Shown: piece by piece, positions 3,464 through 30,513 of the stretch
Layout: the number at the start of each line of letters is the position of its first letter
Position numbering within the stretch: position 1 is the first letter of the stretch
IMG/VR virus record: IMGVR_UViG_3300047491_001570
Span: 1-32,160 of that record
Reading direction: 5' to 3' (one strand)
Length of the DNA: 32,160 nucleotides
Source: a virus
Position numbers and translations under genes: made by a program
The notes under the pieces: generated by a model
Seen by the model: the letters and a program-made list of their open reading frames with translations, nothing else
Databases searched by the model: none
Told to the model about the DNA's origin: nothing

Positions 3464-4214
3464 TATCCGCGATCTCAGGGATGGAAAGTTCTTGTGGATC
3501 GATAAAGCGGCTTTGAAGTTAATCACGGCCAAGGCTGGCCATCGCGGGGTGACGGTTTACGCGTGGCTTTGTTATTTTGCCCATGCCCGAGATCAGGAGT
3601 GTTTTCCATCGATCAATACACTCGCGGAAGAGTGCCGGGTAAGCGGTCGGACGATCGCTCGAACAATTAAAAATTTGGAGAAAGTAAGGGTGATTGCGAT
3701 TCAGCATACCTGTGGAAAAGTCAACGTTTATCAGTTGCTTGATGTGCCGACCACGGTCACGGCTGTCAGTAGACCCCTGTCAGCGTTGTCAGGGGTACCC
3801 CTGACAGCGGTGTCACCCGAACAAGAATTAACTGAACAAGATTTATTTAATAAAGCAGTCCGTAAGGTCTATAGCAAGTCCTCGCCTTTTTCTTGCCCTT
3901 CAGATGAACAGCTAAAAGCTGTTGTTTTTTTATGCATTGAATTAAAAGACTCGATTGATCTTATTGCTTTCTTAAAGAAATACAGAGTTAAGCATTGCCT
4001 GCCGCCTGTCGAGGTTTTAGTCAAAGTTTGTAAACAGTTCAAGGCAGAGAAGGCATCCATTAAGAATGCTTGGGGATGGTTTCAGAAGGTTGTCAGGGCA
4101 GAGACGGGATCGTTTAATGCCTCGATGCAGGTCAGGGAGCATGAGCAGATCAAGAAGGAACCGACCCGTATTGGGGACATCTTGGCAGGCATTGCGGTTT
4201 GTAACAGAGAGTGA
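3447..4214 (+). CDS. winged-helix replication initiator-like protein
   Basis: A 255-residue protein with an N-terminal winged helix-turn-helix of the type common in phage and plasmid replication initiators. The recognition region is PSINTLAEECRVSGRTIARTIKNLEK at about residues 52-77. A low-complexity linker follows (about 100-135, rich in T, V, S and P), then a lysine-rich helical C-terminal half. The ATG at 3447 follows GAGGGAAAA and is preferred to the in-frame ATG at 3420. The linker-coding DNA contains iteron-like repeats and a perfect 20-base palindrome followed by AT-rich DNA, the same gene-internal origin arrangement as lambda O. I infer that it binds these repeats to start replication. 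No DnaB-type helicase or loader is visible nearby. Confidence 0.7.
   Translation: MGLKIDIRDLRDGKFLWIDKAALKLITAKAGHRGVTVYAWLCYFAHARDQECFPSINTLAEECRVSGRTIARTIKNLEKVRVIAIQHTCGKVNVYQLLDVPTTVTAVSRPLSALSGVPLTAVSPEQELTEQDLFNKAVRKVYSKSSPFSCPSDEQLKAVVFLCIELKDSIDLIAFLKKYRVKHCLPPVEVLVKVCKQFKAEKASIKNAWGWFQKVVRAETGSFNASMQVREHEQIKKEPTRIGDILAGIAVCNRE
3750..3860. other. candidate replication origin inside the initiator gene
   Basis: Two 19-base direct repeats with three mismatches, ACCCCTGTCAGCGTTGTCA (3773-3791) and ACCCCTGACAGCGGTGTCA (3797-3815), are 24 bases apart. A more degenerate copy at 3750-3768 matches at 14 of 19 positions. The junction creates a perfect palindrome, TGTCAGGGGTACCCCTGACA (3787-3806). 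AT-rich DNA follows at about 3823-3855. Iterons followed by an AT-rich segment within an initiator gene is the lambda-type origin layout. Confidence 0.5.
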
Positions 4215-18991: not shown

Positions 18992-19870
18992 ATGCAGGAT
19001 TTAAATACTCAATACAAAGATGAAGCAGTCAAGGACGCCAACCGGCCGGTTGAGCTTTATGACATTTATCTTGGGTCGCAGAATTCGTGCGATTCCCAGA
19101 CGTTTTATTTCTGTACGGATAACAAGCGGATCTATTTTTGGAATCTGGATGGCGTCTTGCAGTATTACCAGCCGATCAAGGTCAGGCGGTCGGCGATCCC
19201 GGCCAGCAATCAGCTTGAAATTGAGGCGGTGTCCGGTGAATTTGATAACGTCGACAGACTTTGGAGCAATTGGGTCAATACCACTGATCTTCGGGGCAAG
19301 AGAGTTGTGGTCAGGAAGGTATTCCTTGATCTTTTAAACGACCAGACGCATGCCAAGGTCATGTTTGACGGGATCATCAATGCGGTGTCTGAGCTGACAG
19401 AGTTGAGCGTGAAGCTGGAATGTAAATCGAAACTGAAATCGCTCTCGCTGGAAACAGGACGACTTCAGCAACTTTATTGCAATTACATTTTCGGTGATGA
19501 GTTTTGCCAGCTTGATGTGTCAACAACGCGATTGAATGGCCAGACGGTTGATGCCGGGTCAACGACCGGAGAGGTTATCGATGTCGCACGAAGCGAGGCG
19601 GATGATTGGTGGAATGACGGGATTATTCAGTTTATGTCTGGTGTCAATCAGGGCTTAAAGCGCAAGGTGGTGGATTTTATCAGCGCACAGCACAAGTTGA
19701 TGTTGGATTACGCGCTTCCGCAGGCTCCCGCGGTGGGCGATCTGTACACGATCGAGCGCGGGTGTGACAAGTCCTTTTATGTGTGCAAGAACAGGTTCGG
19801 CAATCAGGCCAACTTCGGTGGGTTCAAGAATATCCCGCAGTTGATCAATCCGATGAAGGTTGAGGCATGA
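18992..19870 (+). CDS. tail hub protein (DUF2163-like), predicted Fe-S protein
   Basis: A 292-residue DUF2163/TIGR02218-type hub protein, equivalent to lambda L and the first hub protein of gene transfer agents. Four cysteines in the C-terminal half (about 163, 172, 258 and 265, in LYCNYIFGDEFCQLD and ERGCDKSFYVCKNRFGNQANFGGF) match the arrangement that binds an iron-sulfur cluster in those relatives. The final GNQANFGGFKNIP is a family signature. I start at ATG 18992, after AAGAGGA, instead of the TTG three bases upstream. Confidence 0.82.
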   Translation: MQDLNTQYKDEAVKDANRPVELYDIYLGSQNSCDSQTFYFCTDNKRIYFWNLDGVLQYYQPIKVRRSAIPASNQLEIEAVSGEFDNVDRLWSNWVNTTDLRGKRVVVRKVFLDLLNDQTHAKVMFDGIINAVSELTELSVKLECKSKLKSLSLETGRLQQLYCNYIFGDEFCQLDVSTTRLNGQTVDAGSTTGEVIDVARSEADDWWNDGIIQFMSGVNQGLKRKVVDFISAQHKLMLDYALPQAPAVGDLYTIERGCDKSFYVCKNRFGNQANFGGFKNIPQLINPMKVEA

Positions 19871-22800
19871 AGAAACTCGACACGGAACTTCTCAACAAGC
19901 TGGTCGGCATCAAATGGGTTCAGGATGGCAGAACGCATGAAGGGGCTGACTGTGTTGGTCTTATGGAGCTGTATTTTAAGGCCAAGGGGGTTGAGGTGTC
20001 GGCGCCCCGGATCAATGATCTGACGCCCGAGGGGCAGGAAGCGTTCATTCGCGGGATCACAGAAGCGAATATGATCGTTGGTCTGTCTGACCTTGAGCCG
20101 GAGGATGTTCTTGTCTTTAAGATCGAGGAGGAGCTTCATGTCGGGCTTTATTTGGGTTATGGGCGAATGCTTCATGCCAAGAAAGACGGCAAGTCGCGCA
20201 TCTCCCGTCTGACCGTCTCATGGGAGAAATACTTCCTGTTTGCCATCAGAGAGAAGGACGGGAAGATGCAGATCCCGCCAGCCGGGCCACCGGCTGTGGT
20301 CGCGGTGGCATTGGTCATTGCAGACTACGCGGCCGCGTCGTTCATTGCGGGCGGACTTATCGCGCTATCGCTTACGACCATCGGATGTTTGATTGGTACA
20401 GCCATGATCGGGTATTCGATCGGGCTTGCTATTCAGGCGCGGCAGTCTTCAAAAAGCGGAGGTGGGTCATCATCGCCCCGGTATCAGTTTGGCGAGCTTC
20501 AGACCACATCAAGCAATCAGTACCCGGTGCCGGTCTTATATGGGCAGGCGAGGCTGGCCGGGAATATCGTCTTTCAGAATCCGGTCATGGGCGGTGAGCA
20601 GATCGACATGCTCATTGTTCTTTGCGAAGGGGAGATCGATAGCATCACCGATGTGCGGCTTAATGGTGAGGCGATCGGGAATTTCCCCGGGTGTTCGTAT
20701 CACGCGTTTACCGGCACATCGACGCAGAACGTGGAGGCGGTGACCGGTCTTGATCTGGATGGTGTTCAGTATCGCAATACCGCGGTGCTTCATGTGCATC
20801 TGGAGACATCGGATAAGCTGAAAGGCGGCAGGCCGAATATTACTTGTGTTTGCAGAGGGAAGAAAGTTCAGACATGGAACGGAACGTCATGGTCACCGGT
20901 ACGTTCCTTCTCGGATAATCCGGCGGCATGTATCAGGGATTATTTGCTTTTGAAACCGCAGGTAGGCGGGTGCGGATATCTACCGGCAGACATTGACGAT
21001 ATGTCGTTCGGCGAGGTTTACGATTATTGCGGGCAGTTTATTTCGGACGGTCAGGCAGGGACAGAGGCAAGGTATGCGGTTTCCTATGTGATCGATCAGA
21101 AACGCGCGGCATCGGATAACCTCACGGAGATATTGGTTGGGTTCGCCGGGGCATTGATCCGGAGCGGATCCAAGCTGAAGCTCTTGGCGGCCAAGACGCA
21201 GGGGGTTGTCGCATCGTTTGATGAGGATGATATCACGGAGTTGCGGGTTGTTCAGAAAGGGCTGGATCAAAAGATCAATCGGTTTGGCATTGAGTATTTT
21301 GACCCCACGCAGGATGACGCACGGATTCTGGCGTGGGGATCGGAAGACAAGGTGGATCAGGATGAGCGCGGGCTTGTTGAGCAGACGCTGACGATTCCTT
21401 CGATCAATCGAAAGACGCAGGCATCGCGCTTAAGCAATCAGTATTTCTACGAGCTGAAGCTTTGTCCGTTGTCGATCGAGTTTACGACCTCATTGAACGC
21501 GATCGGGCAGGAGATCGGGGACGTTATTGCGATCACGCATTCTTTGATGGGGTGGACAAACAAGCAGTTTGTTATCCAGCGCATTGAGGAGGATGAGCGT
21601 GACGTCTACAAGATCACGGCACAGGAATATAACCCGACAATCTACAATGACCGCTTTGGCGCAACGATCCAGTCGTTCGATTACGGCACCCCGCCAAACC
21701 CGCTGGCGCCGGTTTCTGACGTTTCAAATATTGAAGTGTCGGAAAGTCTTTATTATCTGCACCGCGACGGGACAGTCGGGTCAGATATTCTTGTTAGCTT
21801 TGACCCGCCCACGGATGATTCCAGAATATTTTTAAGCCATTATCAGATTGAACTTAAGAAGGGCGCAGAGGATTACAAGGTCGTTGGCACGACCACCGAC
21901 ACGTTCTTCACGATCTTTGGCGTTGAGGATGAGGAAACCTACAAGGTCAAGGTGCGCACGGTTTCCATTAACGGGATTATTTCCGATGGTGCTATTTCAT
22001 CGGATTTGACGGTTCTTGGCAAGCTCATGCCGCCATCCAGTGTTACAGGTTTTGATGTGGTGCAGGAGGGGAATTTCTTGCGCTTCAGCTGGGATGCGAT
22101 TACGGACGCGGATCTTGCCCGGTATGTTATCAGGAAGGGTTCGGAGTGGAATATGGGGCAGGTGATCGCGGAGAGGACAGACACGACCGAGTTCATGTAT
22201 CCGGTGGGAGAGGTCGGCAATGTCACGTTCATGATCAAGGCGGTGGATACGTCCGGTAATGAAAGCCCGTCGCCTGCCATGGAGCAGATTGTTATCACTC
22301 CACCGCCAGAGATGAACTTCATCAATGATTTTGACCTTTGGAGTCAGGATCTTCGTTATCGGTTGAGCAATATGGATCTGGTGTATACGAACGATCATGA
22401 CATGGGTTATGTTCGGCCCGCGTTGTGTTTAAAGACGAATGTGTCGTGGGAGGACAGGGAGGCCGAGGGCTTAACGTGGGAGGCGCAGGAGGCCGCAGGC
22501 GGGCTTGCCCTGAACGGTGCGACCAAAGTATCCGGCTTTTTCGAGATGATCGATGCGATTGATCTTCTGACTGTTTTTGAATTTAAGATCGTTATTGATG
22601 CTGATTTCAGGAATGTCGCGGGCGGATCTTTGGAAGTGCAGGTCAGTTATTCATCAGACGGAGTTTCTTTCACGCCATTTACAACGATCGACGCGTTTTC
22701 AACATACACCGGGCGGTATATCAAGTTCAAGTTTGTCTTAACAACAACGGATACGGCGCATCATGTGTATTTTTACAGTTGTCGTCTTTATATCAATGCT

Positions 22801-23037
22801 CCGGTGACGAGATTGTCGTGGTTCCGCGATGTAGCCATTCCGGTTCTGGGCAAGACAATTCTTTTCGGGACAGGGTTTAATTACCCGCCGCGCGTTACGG
22901 TCACGATCGTCAACGGCATCGTCGGGATGCCGATCGTTTCCAATAAAACAACGACACAGTGCGATATCAAGGTTTATGACCGCAACGGCGCGGCCATCGG
23001 CACTGCTGAGGTGGATGTCGACGTGAAAGGATATTGA
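19867..23037 (+). CDS. fused NlpC/P60 peptidase and tail tip attachment protein (K-I-J-like)
   Basis: A 1056-residue tail tip protein combining functions usually spread over several genes. Residues about 1-130 are an NlpC/P60 cysteine peptidase (EGADCVGL with Cys29, ELHVGLYLG with His91), likely cutting cell-wall peptides during infection. Residues about 135-190 are strongly hydrophobic and Gly/Ala rich, recalling lambda I. Residues about 200-610 resemble the tip/hub (Phage-tail_3, lambda J and GTA hub type), with SSNQYPVPVLYGQARLAGNI and QYFYELKLCPLSIEF. Fibronectin III-like modules follow (about 610-820), then a C-terminal beta region (about 860-1056) that may contact the host receptor. No internal stop or obvious start separates the parts. 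Confidence 0.85.
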   Translation: MKKLDTELLNKLVGIKWVQDGRTHEGADCVGLMELYFKAKGVEVSAPRINDLTPEGQEAFIRGITEANMIVGLSDLEPEDVLVFKIEEELHVGLYLGYGRMLHAKKDGKSRISRLTVSWEKYFLFAIREKDGKMQIPPAGPPAVVAVALVIADYAAASFIAGGLIALSLTTIGCLIGTAMIGYSIGLAIQARQSSKSGGGSSSPRYQFGELQTTSSNQYPVPVLYGQARLAGNIVFQNPVMGGEQIDMLIVLCEGEIDSITDVRLNGEAIGNFPGCSYHAFTGTSTQNVEAVTGLDLDGVQYRNTAVLHVHLETSDKLKGGRPNITCVCRGKKVQTWNGTSWSPVRSFSDNPAACIRDYLLLKPQVGGCGYLPADIDDMSFGEVYDYCGQFISDGQAGTEARYAVSYVIDQKRAASDNLTEILVGFAGALIRSGSKLKLLAAKTQGVVASFDEDDITELRVVQKGLDQKINRFGIEYFDPTQDDARILAWGSEDKVDQDERGLVEQTLTIPSINRKTQASRLSNQYFYELKLCPLSIEFTTSLNAIGQEIGDVIAITHSLMGWTNKQFVIQRIEEDERDVYKITAQEYNPTIYNDRFGATIQSFDYGTPPNPLAPVSDVSNIEVSESLYYLHRDGTVGSDILVSFDPPTDDSRIFLSHYQIELKKGAEDYKVVGTTTDTFFTIFGVEDEETYKVKVRTVSINGIISDGAISSDLTVLGKLMPPSSVTGFDVVQEGNFLRFSWDAITDADLARYVIRKGSEWNMGQVIAERTDTTEFMYPVGEVGNVTFMIKAVDTSGNESPSPAMEQIVITPPPEMNFINDFDLWSQDLRYRLSNMDLVYTNDHDMGYVRPALCLKTNVSWEDREAEGLTWEAQEAAGGLALNGATKVSGFFEMIDAIDLLTVFEFKIVIDADFRNVAGGSLEVQVSYSSDGVSFTPFTTIDAFSTYTGRYIKFKFVLTTTDTAHHVYFYSCRLYINAPVTRLSWFRDVAIPVLGKTILFGTGFNYPPRVTVTIVNGIVGMPIVSNKTTTQCDIKVYDRNGAAIGTAEVDVDVKGY

Positions 23038-23038
23038 T

Positions 23039-23176
23039 ATGAAGGGATATTGCTCAACTTGCAAAGTGATCGTGGAGATATCGGAACTTAAGGAAATACG
23101 GCTTAAGAACGGGACACAGGCGTATACCGGTAAGTGCCCGGATTGCGGCACCGAGATCATAAAAAAGAAAGGCTGA
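23039..23176 (+). CDS. DUF5679-like zinc-ribbon protein
   Basis: A 45-residue protein starting MKGYCSTCKV and containing NGTQAYTGKCPDCGTEI. Two CxxC pairs form a zinc ribbon; the pattern matches small DUF5679-type proteins of unknown function seen in many bacteria. It starts two bases after the tip-protein stop, and its own stop is two bases before the next ATG, so it is in the late operon. A virion structural or nucleic-acid-binding role is possible; nothing here decides. Confidence 0.75.
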   Translation: MKGYCSTCKVIVEISELKEIRLKNGTQAYTGKCPDCGTEIIKKKG

Positions 23177-23178
23177 TC

Positions 23179-24219
23179 ATGGAGAGGCATGTTTTTGACC
23201 CGAACCAGCCGACAGGATCCATGTCGCTGGAGAATATGAGGAATGTGCTGAGGGCGCTATTTCAGGGTGATTTTCTTCCTCTGCGTCCGCGTGCGACGTT
23301 TATATTCGAGGATTTTGAATATTCAACGGACGCGCTGGCACAGTCGGCTTGGAGCGGCACGGGGGTCACGGTTACACGCTCAACAGTGAAGCAGGAGGGG
23401 AACTTTGCGCTTCAGGCCGTTGTAGACGGAACCGGTAACCGGCAGGTTGCCCGGGCGCAGGTCTTGAACTTGGGAGGATTTAAGCAGGCGAAGCTTTGGC
23501 AGAGGTGTTCAGTTGCGGCTTCAGCGTTCAAGTTCTTTATCAAGGACGGATCCAACAATGAAAGTTTCTGGAATCTGACGGCGCATGCTACGGCCAGTAC
23601 ATGGAAGCAGGACACGATTACGCTTGGCACGCCGGATGGCAATAGCGGCACTCCTGCAAACCTCACTAATGTGGCGTCTTTTGGGTTTAAGGGGTTAGCG
23701 GCATCGGCCACATTTGTTTTTGACACGATTACCGCTATTTGCGGCGCGTCTGTTGCTGTCTCCCCGGCACTGGTGAGCAGTTTCTATCAGAACATCTATA
23801 TCGGATCTGCCAGGCTGAGTTTTACTGGTGGGGCTTCACCCGCGATCATGACGCCGCTTTCCAATCCAAGGATTGATCTGTTGACGATCAATTCATCCGG
23901 TGCTTTGGAGTGGACTTCCGGGGTAGAGGCTTCCAGTCCAGCAGAGCCGACATTTCCGTCAGGGAAGTTTCCGATTTGCCTCGTCTATTGCAAACCGACC
24001 ATGATCAAGGTGGTTGACTATGAGTTAAAGGATGCAAACCCGAATGAGGGATACATCTACAAGGATGTCAGGCCGTTGTTTCTTTTGGGGATGTCATCTT
24101 TTTTGTCGCTGACGGATTGTCCGACAAGTTTTACCGGTCAGGCAGGGAAGTCTGTCCGGGTGAAGTCTGATGAAACAGGGCTTGAGTTCGCGTTCCCGAA
24201 TGCGACGTACGCGGAGTGA
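23179..24219 (+). CDS. virion/tail fibre-like protein
   Basis: A 346-residue protein with an N-terminal helix (SLENMRNVLRALFQGDFLPL), then a beta-rich domain about 45-190 that looks like a carbohydrate-binding jelly roll (FEDFEYSTDALAQSAWSGTG, SFWNLTAHATASTW). A repetitive Ser/Thr/Ala-rich beta region follows, and the C-terminus reads SVRVKSDETGLEF, as in many phage fibre or surface proteins. The position after the tip gene supports a host-contact structure. ATG 23179 is three codons after the zinc-ribbon stop, with a weak ribosome binding site (AAAGG). Confidence 0.6.
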   Translation: MERHVFDPNQPTGSMSLENMRNVLRALFQGDFLPLRPRATFIFEDFEYSTDALAQSAWSGTGVTVTRSTVKQEGNFALQAVVDGTGNRQVARAQVLNLGGFKQAKLWQRCSVAASAFKFFIKDGSNNESFWNLTAHATASTWKQDTITLGTPDGNSGTPANLTNVASFGFKGLAASATFVFDTITAICGASVAVSPALVSSFYQNIYIGSARLSFTGGASPAIMTPLSNPRIDLLTINSSGALEWTSGVEASSPAEPTFPSGKFPICLVYCKPTMIKVVDYELKDANPNEGYIYKDVRPLFLLGMSSFLSLTDCPTSFTGQAGKSVRVKSDETGLEFAFPNATYAE

Positions 24220-24222
24220 TAA

Positions 24223-24942
24223 ATGCCACATCTTTTACCGCCCAAACAATGTTCAACGAATACGCCGACATGGACAGATCCGACGCTTACGGCCAATACG
24301 ATTAAGGCTCGCAATGATCATGTTGAGGAATTGCGGATCAAGGTCAATCTGGAGTTCACGCGCCGGAGTTTGGCGACGACTGTCTTTACGGATGTCACGC
24401 TGACAGCGGATGTGACCAAGATCAGAAACGATCATGTCGCGGAATTGCGTACGGCATTGCAGAACATCAAGACCGGCAGAGGGGAGGCCGGATATTGCGT
24501 TCAGGATGTTTCCGGCTGTATGGATTTTACAGACGCGGCATTGACGGCAAACACGATCAAGGCGCGAAATGATCACATTGCGGAGTTGAGGTCGAAACTT
24601 CAGGCATTGATGACGGGATGTATTTGTGAGGCCGAGCAGTGTCAGTATTGCGCGGATTGCGGGTATTACTACCAGACGTGTTCTCATGCGGGTGTCGCCT
24701 GTGATGATCACAAATATAGCGAGTGTCATCACAGCATGGTCGATCATCGGGTGTGCGCCAGTTACAACATGGCGGCTGGTACCGTTCATCCGTATAAAGC
24801 GGCTTCCGGCGATCCGTTATCGACAACGCCGTGGGATGGCTATGTGCCGTGGGCCCCGCAATGTAACTATACGCCACCCGGGAGCAACTGGGGAGCAACG
24901 CATTCGGATTGGAACTGTAAGTGCAATCCGTACACATGGTGA
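24223..24942 (+). CDS. three-repeat protein with Cys- and aromatic-rich tail; candidate radical-SAM substrate
   Basis: A 239-residue protein in two parts. Residues about 17-127 hold three copies of a 26-residue repeat of the form (W/F)TD-x-x-LTA-x-x-x-K-x-RNDH-x-x-ELR (17-42, 55-80, 102-127), a motif also found in bacterial surface proteins. Residues 133-239 contain 12 cysteines plus many Tyr, Trp and His, e.g. CQYCADCGYYYQTCSH, and end NCKCNPYTW. The tail could be a metal-binding or disulfide-rich domain exposed on the virion. Because three radical SAM genes follow in the same operon, it is also the best candidate for a modified substrate. There is no signal peptide. Function is unproven. 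Confidence 0.65.
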   Translation: MPHLLPPKQCSTNTPTWTDPTLTANTIKARNDHVEELRIKVNLEFTRRSLATTVFTDVTLTADVTKIRNDHVAELRTALQNIKTGRGEAGYCVQDVSGCMDFTDAALTANTIKARNDHIAELRSKLQALMTGCICEAEQCQYCADCGYYYQTCSHAGVACDDHKYSECHHSMVDHRVCASYNMAAGTVHPYKAASGDPLSTTPWDGYVPWAPQCNYTPPGSNWGATHSDWNCKCNPYTW

Positions 24943-24948
24943 GGATTT

Positions 24949-25329
24949 ATGTTTGAGGATCAGAGTTTGTCAGATCAGAAGACGCGGATAGTGGCAAAAA
25001 ACACAACAGACAACCCGGTTACCGAGTTGATTTACTGGGTGAGGATGAATCTGGATGACGCCGGTGTCTTGGCATTTACACAGGGGCATTTCACAAGCAT
25101 TGCTTCCCTGAGCGATGCGTTAAAGCAGACGATTCAGGAACTGGGCATCTTGGATGACAAGGGGTTGGTGTCGAATTTCAGTTTCTTTATATCGGGTGAG
25201 AAAAAACATGAGGTGTTCTTGGCGGGAGTAACTGGATTGAGCGTGGATCAGAAGGCGATGGTTTCAGCGCGATTTGGCGTTGATGTCGTTGAGGTTGATC
25301 TGAACCTTTATCGATTGGATTGGCAATGA
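24949..25329 (+). CDS. hypothetical protein coupled to the radical SAM genes
   Basis: A 126-residue protein with no family I recognise and no cysteines. It looks like a small alpha/beta domain: hydrophobic strands (ELIYWVRMN, NFSFFISG, HEVFLAGV, DVVEVDLNLYRLDW) separate helices (SDALKQTIQELG, SVDQKAMVSARFG). ATG 24949 follows GTGAGGA, and its stop overlaps the first radical SAM start as ATGA, so the two are probably made in fixed ratio. It could be a peptide-recognition partner, a substrate, or an unrelated virion protein. Confidence 0.6.
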   Translation: MFEDQSLSDQKTRIVAKNTTDNPVTELIYWVRMNLDDAGVLAFTQGHFTSIASLSDALKQTIQELGILDDKGLVSNFSFFISGEKKHEVFLAGVTGLSVDQKAMVSARFGVDVVEVDLNLYRLDWQ

Positions 25330-26507
25330 GCGTTTTCAGTTTAGAAGAAAGTCAGGCGATCGGTGATTTGCCGTCACAGTGCCGCGAGGTCATCAAAAAG
25401 CACAAGTTTGATGTCAGCGCGGTCATTGGTGAGAAAGCGGATTACACGACGATATATTTCCTGATGACGCAGGACTGTAATCTTCATTGTCCGTATTGCT
25501 ATCAGCCAAGGGAATTTCGTCAAAAGGACAGCGGGATCACCCGGGAGATCATCGATTGTTCCATGGGTTTTCTTGTCAGAACATTTAACGAGGCCAAGAT
25601 CAAGTTCAGCATCTTTGGCGGTGAGCCGTTTGTGAATCTGGACATGATGCGGTATCTGGTCGATACCTACCGGATGTTTCCTTATGTGGTAACAACCAAC
25701 GGTTTGGTGTTGGCAGAGAACGCAGAGGCCCGGGATTGGGTGATGTCGCGCAAAGGGACGATTCGGTTGAGTGTCAGTATCCGGGCGTTGAGGCAGAAAT
25801 TTGGCGCCGGGTATCTGGATGCGGCCCGGCCGGTCTTGGATGTGATCAGGCATAACGGTGGTGATGTTCACTTTGTCATTGATGACCCGGATGAGCCGGG
25901 CATTTTTGAGGAGATCAAATATCTGTTTGAGTATCTGGTGCCGGTGGTCAGGATCTCGACCGCGCGGCATTGGGATCGCATCAAGGATAAGAACGAGGCG
26001 TACAAGGCATTGCTCAAGCGGGTGGCGGATTACGTTTACTTCGACGGTATCCCTAAGTGGGGCCGGTGTCAGTGGGATTCCGTTTTTAAGCACAACATTT
26101 ATCGCAGGCTAAAGGGTGAGGCTGTCAGGAACGTTCCTCCGACCTTTTGCGGGTGCGGGTATTTTTATTTGGCGATCAACAACCGTGGCGAGATTTACCC
26201 ATGTGATTTTTTCGCCAACTTCCCTGAGTTCAAGATCGGGGATGTGTTTAACGGTTTTAACGAGACGTCGATGTTTTTTCGCAAGATGGGCGAGTGGATT
26301 GACGGCCTTTATGAGGATTGCCGGGGTTGCGAGGTATGCGAGGGCGGTGATATCCGGCTTTGCCCGCGGGCAATGTGTCTGGCGGAGAACTATATCAAGA
26401 CAGGCAATCCGCTTAAACCGGCCGTGAATCACTGCTGGGCGAACAGGGTGGAGTATTTCATCTTCGATTACATCGCAAGGCGGGCAATCGAACTGGGGAT
26501 TAAATGA
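25326..26507 (+). CDS. radical SAM protein with SPASM-like C-terminus (first of three)
   Basis: A 393-residue radical S-adenosylmethionine enzyme. The signature CNLHCPYC (Cys51, Cys55, Cys58) binds the catalytic 4Fe-4S cluster, and FGGEP at 97-101 contacts SAM. The C-terminal third is rich in cysteines (CGCGYFY, IYPCDFF, DCRGCEVCEG, LCPRAMC, NHCWAN), the pattern of SPASM auxiliary clusters in enzymes that modify peptides and proteins, such as sulfatase-maturing enzymes and sactisynthases. I start at ATG 25326 in an ATGA overlap. The reaction is unknown. Its place in the phage late operon is unusual. Confidence 0.88.
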   Translation: MSVFSLEESQAIGDLPSQCREVIKKHKFDVSAVIGEKADYTTIYFLMTQDCNLHCPYCYQPREFRQKDSGITREIIDCSMGFLVRTFNEAKIKFSIFGGEPFVNLDMMRYLVDTYRMFPYVVTTNGLVLAENAEARDWVMSRKGTIRLSVSIRALRQKFGAGYLDAARPVLDVIRHNGGDVHFVIDDPDEPGIFEEIKYLFEYLVPVVRISTARHWDRIKDKNEAYKALLKRVADYVYFDGIPKWGRCQWDSVFKHNIYRRLKGEAVRNVPPTFCGCGYFYLAINNRGEIYPCDFFANFPEFKIGDVFNGFNETSMFFRKMGEWIDGLYEDCRGCEVCEGGDIRLCPRAMCLAENYIKTGNPLKPAVNHCWANRVEYFIFDYIARRAIELGIK

Positions 26508-27601
26508 AAACACCGGTCTATAAGTCTGTTTATTTATACCTGACACACGCATGCAACGCGGGGTGCAGTTTCTGTTACCGCAGAGGGTTGTTCCAGCGCA
26601 ACCGGCGAGAGGATCTGGGCCCGGCTTTCATGACAGAGGAGATGGCTTCCAAGGTTCTTGATTTTGTTTTTTCTCGGTTGGAGTTGGATCCGAAGTTCTC
26701 CATCTATTTCTGGGGAGGCGAACCGCTTCTAAACATGAAAGTTATCAGGGCGGTTGTGGAGAGGTATCCGCAGTTTTTCTTTCATACCAATACCAGCGGC
26801 AAGCCGGTGACCGAGGAGATGTTCAACTGGTTCATGGCGCACCGGAACATGAGCCTCACTTGGTCATTGGGCAACGCTTATGAGAAATATGGCGGTTTGC
26901 TTCAAAAGGGCAAGGCCGAGTCGTGGGCATTTCGGCTGGTCAAAGATAATCTGGCCAATAACGTAAATTTTATGGTCACGCAGTATGACCGGTTTGTTGA
27001 GGATTTTGATTATCTGGTTGAGAACGTCACGCGCAACATCACGATCGATCTGGCGACCCGGGTTGAGCATAAGGAAGAGGATTTGGAGAGGTTTGCGGAT
27101 GAGTATTTCCGGCTTCTGGAAAAGTATCGGCATGATGAGGTGTTGTTTCGATTGATCAACCCGGCGTTTCACAGCAATCTTTATTTCCGGGAGTTCGGGC
27201 TTAAGGCACAAGTCAGACCGTTTCATTATTGCCGGTCAGGGTTGGAGAGGTTGTTCATTGATACGGCTGGCGGTATCTGGCAGTGCGACAACATGTACAT
27301 TTGCCAGCATAACCGGCTTGGGGATATCGATTCCGGCATTGATTATTCGCGTCTGGAGCTGGCGTGGGCGATTGATGCCGATCGGGAGAGGTATCTGGGG
27401 CAACACTGCCGAGATTGCGAGCTGTACGGTGTCTGCCCGCGCAACAAGTGCCTTGGACTCAATTTGGAGTGGATGGGAGACATGTTTAAGCCCGAGCCGT
27501 CGTTTTGCAAGATGTGCCGGGTGCTTTTCAAAATAACCAAGCGGTACATCGAGATCGAGAAAGGACAAAAGTATGCAGGAATTGGTAGGCGGGAAGAATA
27601 A
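26504..27601 (+). CDS. radical SAM protein with SPASM-like C-terminus (second of three)
   Basis: A 365-residue radical SAM enzyme. The cluster motif is CNAGCSFC (Cys17, Cys21, Cys24) and the SAM-contacting motif is FWGGEPLL (69-76). The C-terminal region again carries SPASM-type cysteines (HYCRSG, IWQCDNMYICQHN, HCRDCELYGVCPRNKC, SFCKMC). It starts in an ATGA overlap with the first enzyme. It is clearly different in sequence from its neighbours, so the three are not a recent tandem duplication and may act on different residues or in sequence. Substrate unknown. Confidence 0.87.
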   Translation: MKTPVYKSVYLYLTHACNAGCSFCYRRGLFQRNRREDLGPAFMTEEMASKVLDFVFSRLELDPKFSIYFWGGEPLLNMKVIRAVVERYPQFFFHTNTSGKPVTEEMFNWFMAHRNMSLTWSLGNAYEKYGGLLQKGKAESWAFRLVKDNLANNVNFMVTQYDRFVEDFDYLVENVTRNITIDLATRVEHKEEDLERFADEYFRLLEKYRHDEVLFRLINPAFHSNLYFREFGLKAQVRPFHYCRSGLERLFIDTAGGIWQCDNMYICQHNRLGDIDSGIDYSRLELAWAIDADRERYLGQHCRDCELYGVCPRNKCLGLNLEWMGDMFKPEPSFCKMCRVLFKITKRYIEIEKGQKYAGIGRREE

Positions 27602-28730
27602 GAACGAAATCAGGAGCATCGATCTGTTCATTACAGAGCGGTGCAACATGGACTGTGAATATTGCTTTCACCCCAAAGGCGACAGCGTGTTGTCGTTTGA
27701 TCAGGGCAAGAAAATCTTGGATCGGATGAAGGCAATTAGCCCGGATGGTCTGCAGATTACCTTCTTTGGCGGTGAGCCATTGATCTTCCCGCAGACGGTT
27801 CTGGATTTGGCGCGGTACGCCCGGGATCTCTGGCCGGATAAGGACGGCAGGCATATGGCGGTCTTTAGCGTGTCAACGAACGGCACATTTTTCGATGAGG
27901 ACGTGTTCCGGCAGTTCAAGGATCTGCATTTCTCAATTCAGGTCAGTTGTGATGGAGATGAGGCAACGACCATGGAGCATCGCAAGGGCAATTGGTCCAA
28001 GGTTGTTGAGAACATGAAGAAGATGCTGGCCATATTCCCGGATCTGGGTGTTCGCATGACCTATACACCCAAGACAGTTGGCAGGCTTGCCATCAACGTG
28101 CAGTTTTTGCATCAGGAGGTTGGGGTTCAAAAGATCATGCATCATGCGGTCATGGAGGCTGATTGGACGGATGAGGCCGTTGAAAAATACTCTTATCAGC
28201 TCAACCAGCTTTATCATTACCGCCGATATTGCATCCGGCAGGGGATTCCTCTGCAGATCGCGTTTATCGACAAGCCCCTTAAGGTCGTCAATGACGAGGT
28301 TCCGCCGGAAATGAACTATTGCGAGGCCGGGAAATCCTATTTGGCCATCTTGCCTGACGGCGACGTTTATCCATGCCACCGTGCGGCCAGTGCCCGGGTG
28401 TTTAAGCTGGGCAATATTTTTGATGAGAGGCCGTTCATCCGGGGCGTGTTTTTGAGCATCAACAAGGAATACACCGGTTGCTGGAAGAATTGCCCCGCGG
28501 CCACGAGCTGTCACAGTTGCGTGATCACGCATCACAAGGTCAACGGCGATTTGACGCAACCGATCAGCAAATACTGCAAGCTGTGCCGTCTTGAGCATGA
28601 CGAGGCGATGAGATTCTTGCCGGTTGAATTGAGCGATCGGCGGGAACGAATGCTTTACAAAATCGGTCAGGTCTTGGTGGACGTGGCCAAGCAGAACGAA
28701 GAGATTTTAACGGCATTAAGAAAGGAGTAG
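27573..28730 (+). CDS. radical SAM protein with SPASM-like C-terminus (third of three)
   Basis: A 385-residue radical SAM enzyme. The motif CNMDCEYC (Cys24, Cys28, Cys31) and FFGGEP (64-69) define the core. C-terminal cysteines (MNYCEAG, VYPCHRA, GCWKNCPAATSCHSC, KYCKLCRLE) form a SPASM-like region. In overall arrangement it is the closest of the three to anaerobic sulfatase-maturing enzymes, as judged by eye. ATG 27573 follows AAAGGA and overlaps the second enzyme by 29 bases. A C-terminal helix (LYKIGQVLVDVAKQNEEILTAL) may mediate partner contact. Confidence 0.88.
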   Translation: MQELVGGKNKNEIRSIDLFITERCNMDCEYCFHPKGDSVLSFDQGKKILDRMKAISPDGLQITFFGGEPLIFPQTVLDLARYARDLWPDKDGRHMAVFSVSTNGTFFDEDVFRQFKDLHFSIQVSCDGDEATTMEHRKGNWSKVVENMKKMLAIFPDLGVRMTYTPKTVGRLAINVQFLHQEVGVQKIMHHAVMEADWTDEAVEKYSYQLNQLYHYRRYCIRQGIPLQIAFIDKPLKVVNDEVPPEMNYCEAGKSYLAILPDGDVYPCHRAASARVFKLGNIFDERPFIRGVFLSINKEYTGCWKNCPAATSCHSCVITHHKVNGDLTQPISKYCKLCRLEHDEAMRFLPVELSDRRERMLYKIGQVLVDVAKQNEEILTALRKE

Positions 28731-28734
28731 TTCC

Positions 28735-29028
28735 ATGACAGGTAATTCTATTGGGTTTGAGGAAATTGTCGTTGATGTCGGTGTGGTGGGCCTGAATCCG
28801 GCGATATTTCAACCGGCAATTGGAGACCCGGCCGCCAAGGCGTTTATTACGGCAGAGGGTGGAGCAATGCGGTATCGGATTGACGGATTGGATCCAACGG
28901 ATACGAGTGGGCATCCTCTATTGGATTCGGACTTCTTGGAGTTAAAGAGTATTTATCTTATTCGAAAGTTCCGGGTCATCAAACAGAGTGCAACCGCTGG
29001 GAAGCTAACGGTCACTTACGAAAGTTAG
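28735..29028 (+). CDS. small phage surface/decoration-like protein
   Basis: A 97-residue beta-rich protein. The segment GGAMRYRIDGLDPTDTSGHPLLDSDFLEL followed by FRVIKQSATAGKLTVTYE resembles small virion accessory proteins that recur near phage tail genes and are predicted to fold as a compact beta-sandwich. It starts five bases after the last radical SAM gene with AAAGGAG upstream and precedes the variable DUF1566 protein. It is probably structural; substrate status for the radical SAM enzymes cannot be excluded, but it has no cysteine. Confidence 0.6.
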   Translation: MTGNSIGFEEIVVDVGVVGLNPAIFQPAIGDPAAKAFITAEGGAMRYRIDGLDPTDTSGHPLLDSDFLELKSIYLIRKFRVIKQSATAGKLTVTYES

Positions 29029-29037
29029 GAGGGGGAT

Positions 29038-29574
29038 ATGCATATTCAGCAAGCGAGGACTTATAAGATCGAGAATATCCAGCCGCCAGCGCAGAATTTC
29101 TACGCGGCGTTGATGCAGACCGGCCAGAACTGGTCGCGGTATTGGGGAGATGATGGAGCATATCAAAAGGGTGCCAATATTTGGGGCGCACGATTCACTG
29201 ACAATGGGGACGGAACAGTCACCGACACCCTCACGGGTCTTATGTGGGTTCGTGATCCGTGGTCGTTGTTTTCGTGGCAGATGAGCTGGTATGACGCGGT
29301 TAATAATTGTGAGAATCTTGATTACGCGGGGTATCAGGATTGGCGGCTTCCGAATGTAATCGAGCTGGAATCACTCATTAACTATGCGTATTGCTATCTG
29401 TGCATTGACCAGATGTGGTTTTGGAATATCCAACAGAACTGGTATTGGTCTTCGACGGTTTACGCGCCGTACGATTATTACATTTGGATGGTCTATTTCG
29501 GTGACGGGCAAAGGTCTTACGCGGATCGGGACATGACCTACAACTACATCATCCCTGTCAGGGGTGGTCAATAA
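29038..29574 (+). CDS. DUF1566 receptor-binding-type protein, likely DGR target
   Basis: A 178-residue DUF1566 (Lcl C-terminal, C-type-lectin-like) protein. The core GARFTDNGDGTVTDTLTGLMWV (about 51-72) and AGYQDWRLPNVIELESLINY (about 97-116) are clear family signatures. The C-terminal part from Asn134 starts NWYWSST and is extremely rich in Tyr (nine in 45 residues), ending IIPVRGGQ. In diversity-generating retroelement systems this family's C-terminus is the hypervariable ligand-binding face and has this same WSST...PVRGG frame. It probably binds host receptors on the virion tip. ATG 29038 follows TAGGAGGGGG. No reverse transcriptase or template repeat was found in this window. Confidence 0.85.
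   Translation: MHIQQARTYKIENIQPPAQNFYAALMQTGQNWSRYWGDDGAYQKGANIWGARFTDNGDGTVTDTLTGLMWVRDPWSLFSWQMSWYDAVNNCENLDYAGYQDWRLPNVIELESLINYAYCYLCIDQMWFWNIQQNWYWSSTVYAPYDYYIWMVYFGDGQRSYADRDMTYNYIIPVRGGQ
29437..29574 (+). other. candidate DGR variable region
   Basis: The last 46 codons of the DUF1566 gene. Fixed-looking WSST and PVRGG segments flank codons dominated by TAC, TAT, GAT, GAC, ATC and ATT, as expected if AAC/AAT codons of a template had been mutated at adenines. The end contains CCCTG-T-CAGGG (29553-29563), a short inverted repeat near where an initiation-of-mutagenic-homing element would lie. Without a template repeat the boundaries are estimates. Confidence 0.5.
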
Positions 29575-30096: not shown

Positions 30097-30203
30097 ACGT
30101 GTTCATTGCTTTTGTTTTGGGAATCACGATCGGAGGGCTGGGGATGTTCTTTTATCTTTCAATTACGGGGAGGTTGAACAATGGCGGATCAGGAAAAGTT
30201 TAA
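30093..30203 (+). CDS. 36-residue membrane peptide
   Basis: A very small protein beginning at ATG 30093 in an ATGA overlap with the gene before. It is almost all one hydrophobic helix (VFIAFVLGITIGGLGMFFYL). GGGAGG lies upstream. Its 3' end overlaps the next gene by 23 bases in another frame. Compact arrangement and clear start signals favour a real gene, perhaps a small holin-like or spanin partner. Confidence 0.5.
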   Translation: MNVFIAFVLGITIGGLGMFFYLSITGRLNNGGSGKV

Positions 30204-30513
30204 CCTCTTCAAGTTCTTGGGGAGTTTCTTTCAGCTATTACCGTGGATCAAGAATATCCGGTACATGGTGGGTTTCGCATTGGCGGGCTTTGTGGGCCTG
30301 ACGATCTATCGGGCATTCTTTATGCCAACGCAGACCACAAAGCAGGTGACGCAGATCGTGGCACAGCGCGGGGCGCAGGTGACCGTTGATCAGAAGCGCG
30401 AGGAGAAGGCGTCTGGTTTGGCGGTTCATCCTTTTGTGGAGGGGTACGGCTTCGCTGAGTCAGACAAGCGGACAGGAGCGGGCGGCCGCGCGGGCTTGCG
30501 GGTGGAGTTCTGA
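30181..30513 (+). CDS. single-pass membrane protein, unknown
   Basis: A 110-residue protein with a hydrophobic segment at about 28-46 (YMVGFALAGFVGLTIYRAF) after a short cytoplasmic N-terminus and before a long polar region rich in Gln, Arg, Lys and Gly. ATG 30181 follows GGGGAGG. It may belong to the lysis or host-membrane cluster; no enzymatic motif is visible. Confidence 0.6.
   Translation: MADQEKFNLFKFLGSFFQLLPWIKNIRYMVGFALAGFVGLTIYRAFFMPTQTTKQVTQIVAQRGAQVTVDQKREEKASGLAVHPFVEGYGFAESDKRTGAGGRAGLRVEF

Follow-up and report, generated by a model that had tools for sequence, protein, structure and literature searches.

The window analysed here, an IMG/VR viral contig (IMGVR_UViG_3300047491_001570; 32,160 bases), carries within its late tail operon three consecutive genes for radical S-adenosylmethionine (SAM) enzymes, which we call R1, R2 and R3, and ahead of them a gene for a cysteine-rich (Cys-rich) protein that we refer to by its first base as 24223. 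By its gene content the window is a temperate siphovirus, because PHROGs searches find an integrase, a replication initiator, a terminase, a portal, a major head protein, a tape measure and a J-type central tail fibre. The original prediction proposed that the three enzymes form a cassette dedicated to maturing a virion or secreted protein; in doing so it missed the key partner, as comparison with related sequences places the start of the unit at 24223, the conserved partner gene. The elements of the unit are as follows (pLDDT, predicted local distance difference test):

24223–24942, plus strand: candidate substrate, a 239-residue putative tail protein with three helical repeats and a Cys-rich C-terminal domain, picked out by Cys density and by its presence in every cassette
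24271–24591, plus strand: three copies of a repeat, (W/F)TD..LTA..(T)...R..H..ELR, predicted to fold as helices and to form the shared anchor domain, pLDDT mostly 70–85
24616–24939, plus strand: Cys-rich domain, the presumed modified region, with a conserved segment and invariant Cys
25326–26507, plus strand: R1, predicted radical SAM/SPASM enzyme of 393 residues, PapB-like (1.5e-28), starting at an ATGA; an orthologous group
26504–27601, plus strand: R2, predicted radical SAM/SPASM-like enzyme of 365 residues, PapB-like (2.3e-26); an orthologous group, support 100/99
27573–28730, plus strand: R3, predicted radical SAM/SPASM enzyme of 385 residues, PapB-like (1.4e-50), with CteB (5wgg, 1.5e-26) as its closest solved structure; an orthologous group, support 100/100

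All three enzyme reading frames are intact, and most of what had been read directly from them holds: they are distinct genes, each recurring in other phages as a separate orthologous group, with the CX3CX2C motifs CNLHCPYC, CNAGCSFC and CNMDCEYC, a GGEP motif in each and Cys-rich C termini. The predicted overlaps are also there, R1 and R2 sharing an ATGA and R2 and R3 overlapping by 29 bp, as is the ATGA coupling of the 126-residue gene at 24949 to R1, which therefore starts at the ATG at 25326 and not at the TTG at 25320.

A conserved four-gene cassette

Separate scans of viral contigs with 24223, R1, R2 and R3 converge on one set of contigs, although the pattern-based scans that define these sets can miss relatives and some contigs are near-duplicates from related samples. 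24223 is present in every cassette found, and the order 24223–24949–R1–R2–R3 persists where the tail genes upstream are about 25–30% identical or gone. Two contigs, L046 (92 kb) and L048 (in which the cassette adjoins a baseplate J-like gene), have flanks unrelated to those of the window and lack three genes, namely 24949, the gene at 28735 and the Lcl_C gene at 29038, yet the order 24223–R1–R2–R3 is intact in them, with enzymes 32–49% and 35–43% identical to those of the window, respectively. Because the order survives there without these three genes, we take 24223 plus R1–R3 as the core. Both 28735 and Lcl_C are missing from two further cassettes, L027 and L028, and absence from these four contigs rules them out as core parts. 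The homologues thus lie in phages and prophages with conserved neighbours, rather than only in hosts or as lone genes. One extra match in the alignment-based scan with R1 (L154, 24% identity) was rejected, because its radical SAM gene is unrelated and no Cys-rich protein is encoded next to it.

In a maximum-likelihood tree, R1, R2 and R3 form three orthologous groups (support 90/89, 100/99 and 100/100). The triplet is therefore old and not redundant, and predates its spread to such different phages.

Four products had been put forward as possible substrates, those of 24223, 24949, 28735 and 29038; the first is always present and the other three are missing from some cassettes. The same distribution bears on the idea that R1–R3 modify another phage protein (24949, 28735, Lcl_C or the tip protein J) or a host protein. 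That these genes share an operon, and that 24949 is translationally coupled to R1, would fit such a role, but the enzymes persist without 24949 (L046 and L048) and without 28735 and 29038 (L027, L028, L046 and L048), and J-like tip proteins remain in phages that have none of the enzymes (type C, below). We regard this idea as very unlikely.

An exchangeable slot beside J

The cassette occupies a slot that can be examined independently of its content, by searching viral contigs and 384 host-phylum genomes for a neutral anchor, the downstream gene at 30181–30513. Three slot states were found. Type A (14 slot-covering contigs) holds a 24223-type Cys-rich protein and R1–R3; type B (4) a (TC)n-tailed protein and two other radical SAM enzymes; and type C (9) neither a Cys-rich protein nor a radical SAM gene, its tip protein having an extra C-terminal part that is missing in A and B. 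Cys-rich protein and enzymes are thus both present in 18 contigs and both missing in 9, numbers that include near-duplicates and do not amount to 27 independent events, and within the window's phage family the two are never separated where the slot is intact. It follows from these states that protein and enzymes move together.

The exchange can be seen within a single chromosome, that of Candidatus Velamenicoccus archaeovorus, whose two prophages fill the slot with different protein-and-enzyme sets that have the repeat domain in common. The second prophage (L077, G001:C1:1903000-1916000) has a type B slot, in which a 191-residue protein with a repeat domain like that of 24223 (hhalign E 1.2e-7) ends in CCECECTCTCTCTCTCTCTCTCTCQEQCCSECDCGD; next come a radical SAM enzyme of the SPASM type and then a PhpK/B12-binding-like one.

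The location of the slot also speaks to whether 24223 is a tail protein at all, or instead a secreted peptide or protein (a toxin, bacteriocin or factor of lysogenic conversion) that R1–R3 mature and whose gene is simply parked in the tail operon. The names of the matched families favour secretion, since secreted peptides are the usual products of radical SAM maturases that act on Cys-rich targets, and the relatives are prophages. However, 24223 lies directly within the late tail operon, after J, in siphoviruses and beside baseplate-type genes in L046 and L048, the slot corresponds to the tail-tip region, where the tip proteins of type C phages carry their extra C-terminal part, and no leader peptidase or exporter was found by Pfam, PHROGs and NCBIfam searches among the ten neighbouring genes between 23134 and 30510. 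A secreted product consequently seems quite unlikely to us. Overall, linkage, order and exchange favour the proposed dedicated cassette, with a virion protein as its probable target.

The candidate substrate

The Cys-rich domain of 24223 starts with CICEAEQCQYCADCGYYY and ends with WNCKCNPYTW, and 24223 is the only open reading frame (ORF) of the window with at least 9 Cys in 60 residues. As a background control, phage and prophage DNA from elsewhere, about 150 kb in all, contained three such frames, one of which was a cassette copy of 24223 itself. Across 15 aligned relatives, conservation is highest in residues 132–168 (56–100% identity to the window), and ten Cys of the C terminus are invariant in every row that covers them. 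The protein has no NCBIfam match, including to the CXXX-repeat target model TIGR04114, and no match among INPHARED phages. Structure prediction models the helical repeats alone, the Cys-rich domain having a pLDDT mostly of 24–32.

Comparative sequence evidence strongly suggests that 24223 is the substrate of R1–R3, and its gene position in the tail operon, the basis for calling it a virion tail protein, argues for that role with moderate force.

The enzymes and their chemistry

By motifs and profiles, R1, R2 and R3 all belong to the radical SAM superfamily: each exceeds the PF13353 cut-off, and their PF04055 scores are 29.4 (just below the cut-off of 29.5), 24.2 and 61 bits, respectively. The description of all three as SPASM-like stands for R1 (TIGR04085, 33 bits; cut-off 27) and R3 (PF13186, 29.3 bits; cut-off 21.5), but R2 falls marginally under the TIGR04085 threshold at 25 bits; its C-terminal Cys pattern is nonetheless kept in relatives. 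The top NCBIfam matches of the three are all radical SAM/SPASM peptide maturases, with PapB first, and the families matched (PapB, SCIFF, nif11-like and CcpM) concern Cys peptides. The scores against PapB (NF047865; 100, 93 and 172 bits for R1, R2 and R3) do not reach the family cut-off of 340. As R1–R3 score far under the curated maturase cut-offs, the names of the matched families do not reveal their chemistry.

PapB and the SCIFF maturase CteB, as top family match and nearest structure to R3, are still the closest known guides, and by analogy with them thioether chemistry is moderately supported. They differ from the window in acting singly on a short peptide, whereas here three enzymes accompany a 239-residue predicted tail protein. 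Both CteB and PapB link Cys to another residue through a thioether, which PapB forms between Cys and Asp/Glu (PMC9413430).

It could also be that the Cys-rich domain binds a metal or an iron–sulfur cluster, and that the enzymes perform another reaction there in place of cross-linking, such as C-methylation, oxidation or cofactor synthesis. Metals are typically bound by patterns such as CxC and CxxC, and the pairing in type B of a protein with a B12-binding-like enzyme points to chemistry beyond thioethers in the slot. This sits poorly with the resemblance of all three enzymes to SPASM peptide maturases, thioether formers first, and three enzymes would be needless; we judge it unlikely. Far less credible is viperin-like anti-phage defence or auxiliary metabolism, which could draw on weak local similarity to pVip models and on the metabolic reading given to a radical SAM cluster of Campylobacter phages (PMC2853527). 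None of the enzymes reaches the viperin cut-off (NF038283; R3 54.6, R1 32.6 and R2 29.4 bits, against 180), R3 has a SPASM-type C terminus, and the enzymes are linked to a putative tail protein.

A proposed maturation mechanism

We consider it probable, if well short of certain, that 24223 is a virion tail protein cross-linked by its own maturases R1–R3, probably through thioethers, the four genes forming a self-contained cassette. The helical repeats would anchor the tail-tip protein, act as a recognition region, or both, and the C-terminal Cys-rich domain would be the substrate. R1, R2 and R3 would each bind SAM and a [4Fe-4S] cluster and generate a 5'-deoxyadenosyl radical. By a proposed division of labour, they would install different cross-links in the domain, probably successively and at different sites, most likely thioethers from Cys to nearby residues of the ranthipeptide or sactipeptide kind. 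The matured domain, rigid and reduction-proof, would be mounted near J at the tail tip. Disulfides are unreliable in reducing habitats, where such a tip could hypothetically be an advantage; in an anaerobic host it might, speculatively, help adsorption or envelope passage.

Several points weigh against this proposal. The independent deep lineages are few (the window family, L046/L047, L048 and L045), and the assignment of 24223 as substrate comes from linkage; its Cys-rich domain, for which the model predicts no fold, could bind metal, or the protein may lie outside the virion. The scores of R1–R3 are far under every curated maturase cut-off, and R2 is slightly short of the SPASM threshold. 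No leader-binding domain was recognised for the cassette, and 24949 has no confident fold match.

Similar arrangements in other phages

Radical SAM enzymes with Cys-rich targets are of a known kind. Most known cases of radical SAM maturation concern small peptides, together with a few enzymes. In the open-licence literature we found no description of radical SAM maturation of a phage structural protein, nor of three orthologous enzymes tied to a tail protein in a slot that swaps whole sets. The original prediction that the triple set matches no nameable phage module is in keeping with this, but it overlooked simpler analogues in a gut phage and in SPN3US-type jumbo phages.

The CXXX-repeat system (TIGR04114/TIGR04115) similarly places a gene for a Cys-rich, mostly repetitive target beside one for a radical SAM/SPASM enzyme; the Cys domain of the window has no simple repeat and is accompanied by three enzymes instead of one, which do not reach the TIGR04115 cut-off (60, 35 and 91 bits for R1, R2 and R3, against 350). 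Gut phage record MT835573 (L059) encodes a tail-region protein above the TIGR04114 cut-off, followed by two small genes and an enzyme resembling TIGR04115 (300 bits, cut-off 350); BppU-like genes, judged by eye, come next.

In SPN3US-type jumbo phages a radical SAM pair adjoins virion or tail-fibre genes, and two Cys-dense CXXX-repeat ORFs sit between the virion structural gene and the pair:

SPN3US_0163/0164, ChrisDB gp183/184, Wellington gp178/179 and CR5 153/154: radical SAM pairs
Salmonella phage SPN3US (NC_027402), L126 3142–3531 and 3545–3946: CXXX-repeat ORFs
Other jumbo phages, L129 5070–5855, L130 3100–3923 and L132 3115–3917: CXXX-repeat ORFs

The SPN3US annotation misses these ORFs, as the gene called there (gp100/SPN3US_0166) uses another frame, and the annotations of ChrisDB and CR5 have an antisense gene nearby. 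A third, shorter frame with a CNGGCSWSCSGSCS motif follows the two ORFs in SPN3US (L126, about 3950–4180). The adjacent gp168 and its paralogues gp169–170 are tail components by proteomics (PMC10052503), likely tail fibre or baseplate proteins (PMC10052503; PMC5105663). Unlike the window, these phages have simpler repeat proteins and two enzymes, about 25% identical to R1–R3; because the jumbo enzymes are such distant relatives, we treat the resemblance as an analogy of arrangement, perhaps of function, rather than as proof of one family.

As a possible parallel, Campylobacter phages CP220 and CPt10 swap several radical SAM genes en bloc between related phages, but there the genes were read as metabolic and no Cys-rich partner was named (PMC2853527). 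Campylobacter phage vB_CjeM_WX1 has, close to a gene for tail-fibre attachment, a gene (L134, 2201–3760) whose 520-residue product contains 29 Cys and carries the annotation N-acetylneuraminate pyruvate lyase; a radical SAM gene follows about 2.2 kb downstream. Not every phage radical SAM gene is paired in this way, as those of Thermus phiLo, Achromobacter 2-1 and Phass-1 have no Cys-dense neighbour. Four gut records filed as bacteriophage (L057, L058, L127 and L128) were set aside because they resemble bacterial DNA with housekeeping genes; L127 encodes a CXXX protein with a signal peptide and its own radical SAM enzyme.

We place roughly even odds on a broader proposal, namely that radical-SAM-matured, cross-linked tail proteins are a general and unrecognised class of appendage in siphoviruses, myoviruses and jumbo phages, in which Cys-rich tail proteins with their own maturases act as exchangeable tip modules and the three-enzyme set is the most elaborate form. 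If so, phage tails would carry covalent cross-links formed before assembly, tail-tip modules would include their own modifying enzymes, phages of reducing habitats would have rigid tips free of disulfides, and a testable role would emerge for the radical SAM genes that have been puzzling in jumbo and Campylobacter phages. Amber mutants and published virion proteomes of SPN3US make the question approachable now.

Neighbouring genes and host

The genes around and between those of the core, all on the plus strand, are:

19867–23037, plus strand: central tail fibre or tip attachment protein J, 1,056 residues (phrog_31 'central tail fiber J', 1.5e-80)
23134–24219, plus strand: 361-residue late tail protein directly upstream of 24223, with weak tail-protein PHROG matches
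24949–25329, plus strand: optional 126-residue accessory protein with no family match (model pLDDT 79.8)
28735–29028, plus strand: 97-residue late protein, common to types A and B, often adjoining the slot and outside the core
29038–29574, plus strand: Lcl_C/DUF1566 protein (PF07603, 1.8e-27), outside the core

The product of 23134–24219 is not conserved with the cassette, being unmatched in L011 and L013–L018. That of 24949 is possibly a helper for R1–R3; in a check for a leader-binding (RRE) role, a Foldseek search of its fair-quality AlphaFold model against the PDB gave nothing significant (best E 0.17). A partial R3 still precedes 28735- and Lcl-like genes at one contig end (L117) and in a probable prophage remnant (L121).

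The Lcl_C protein is probably a receptor-binding module, and its variability fits that role: close relatives share about 44–61% identity in it, and in most of them the adjacent R3 and 28735 vary far less. Proteins of the Lcl_C/DUF1566 kind are often varied by diversity-generating retroelements. In three distant relatives found through the anchor gene (L100, L101 and L102), a reverse transcriptase (phrog_1423), possibly of such a retroelement, adjoins the anchor; no reverse transcriptase gene was noticed in the window.

Close relatives of the window phage are Omnitrophota prophages, two of them in the Candidatus Velamenicoccus chromosome, where the terminases are 79% and 77% identical to that of the window and the integrases also match. 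The 24223–R1–R2–R3 cassette occurs in this complete chromosome and in two Omnitrophota metagenome-assembled genomes (MAGs). Because cassette, terminases and integrases all match, Omnitrophota, a phylum of deep-branching anaerobes, is the likely host phylum. The fourth genome with the cassette, MAG UBA1447 (L027), is labelled Ruminococcaceae, probably through a wrong label or mis-binning of the contig; it carries the window's phage family, with R1 broken into two frames. Omnitrophota genomes (L063–L069, L072 and L074) also encode large proteins, many of more than 500 and up to 1,455 residues, whose repeats resemble the helical repeats of 24223 and are perhaps the source of its anchor domain.

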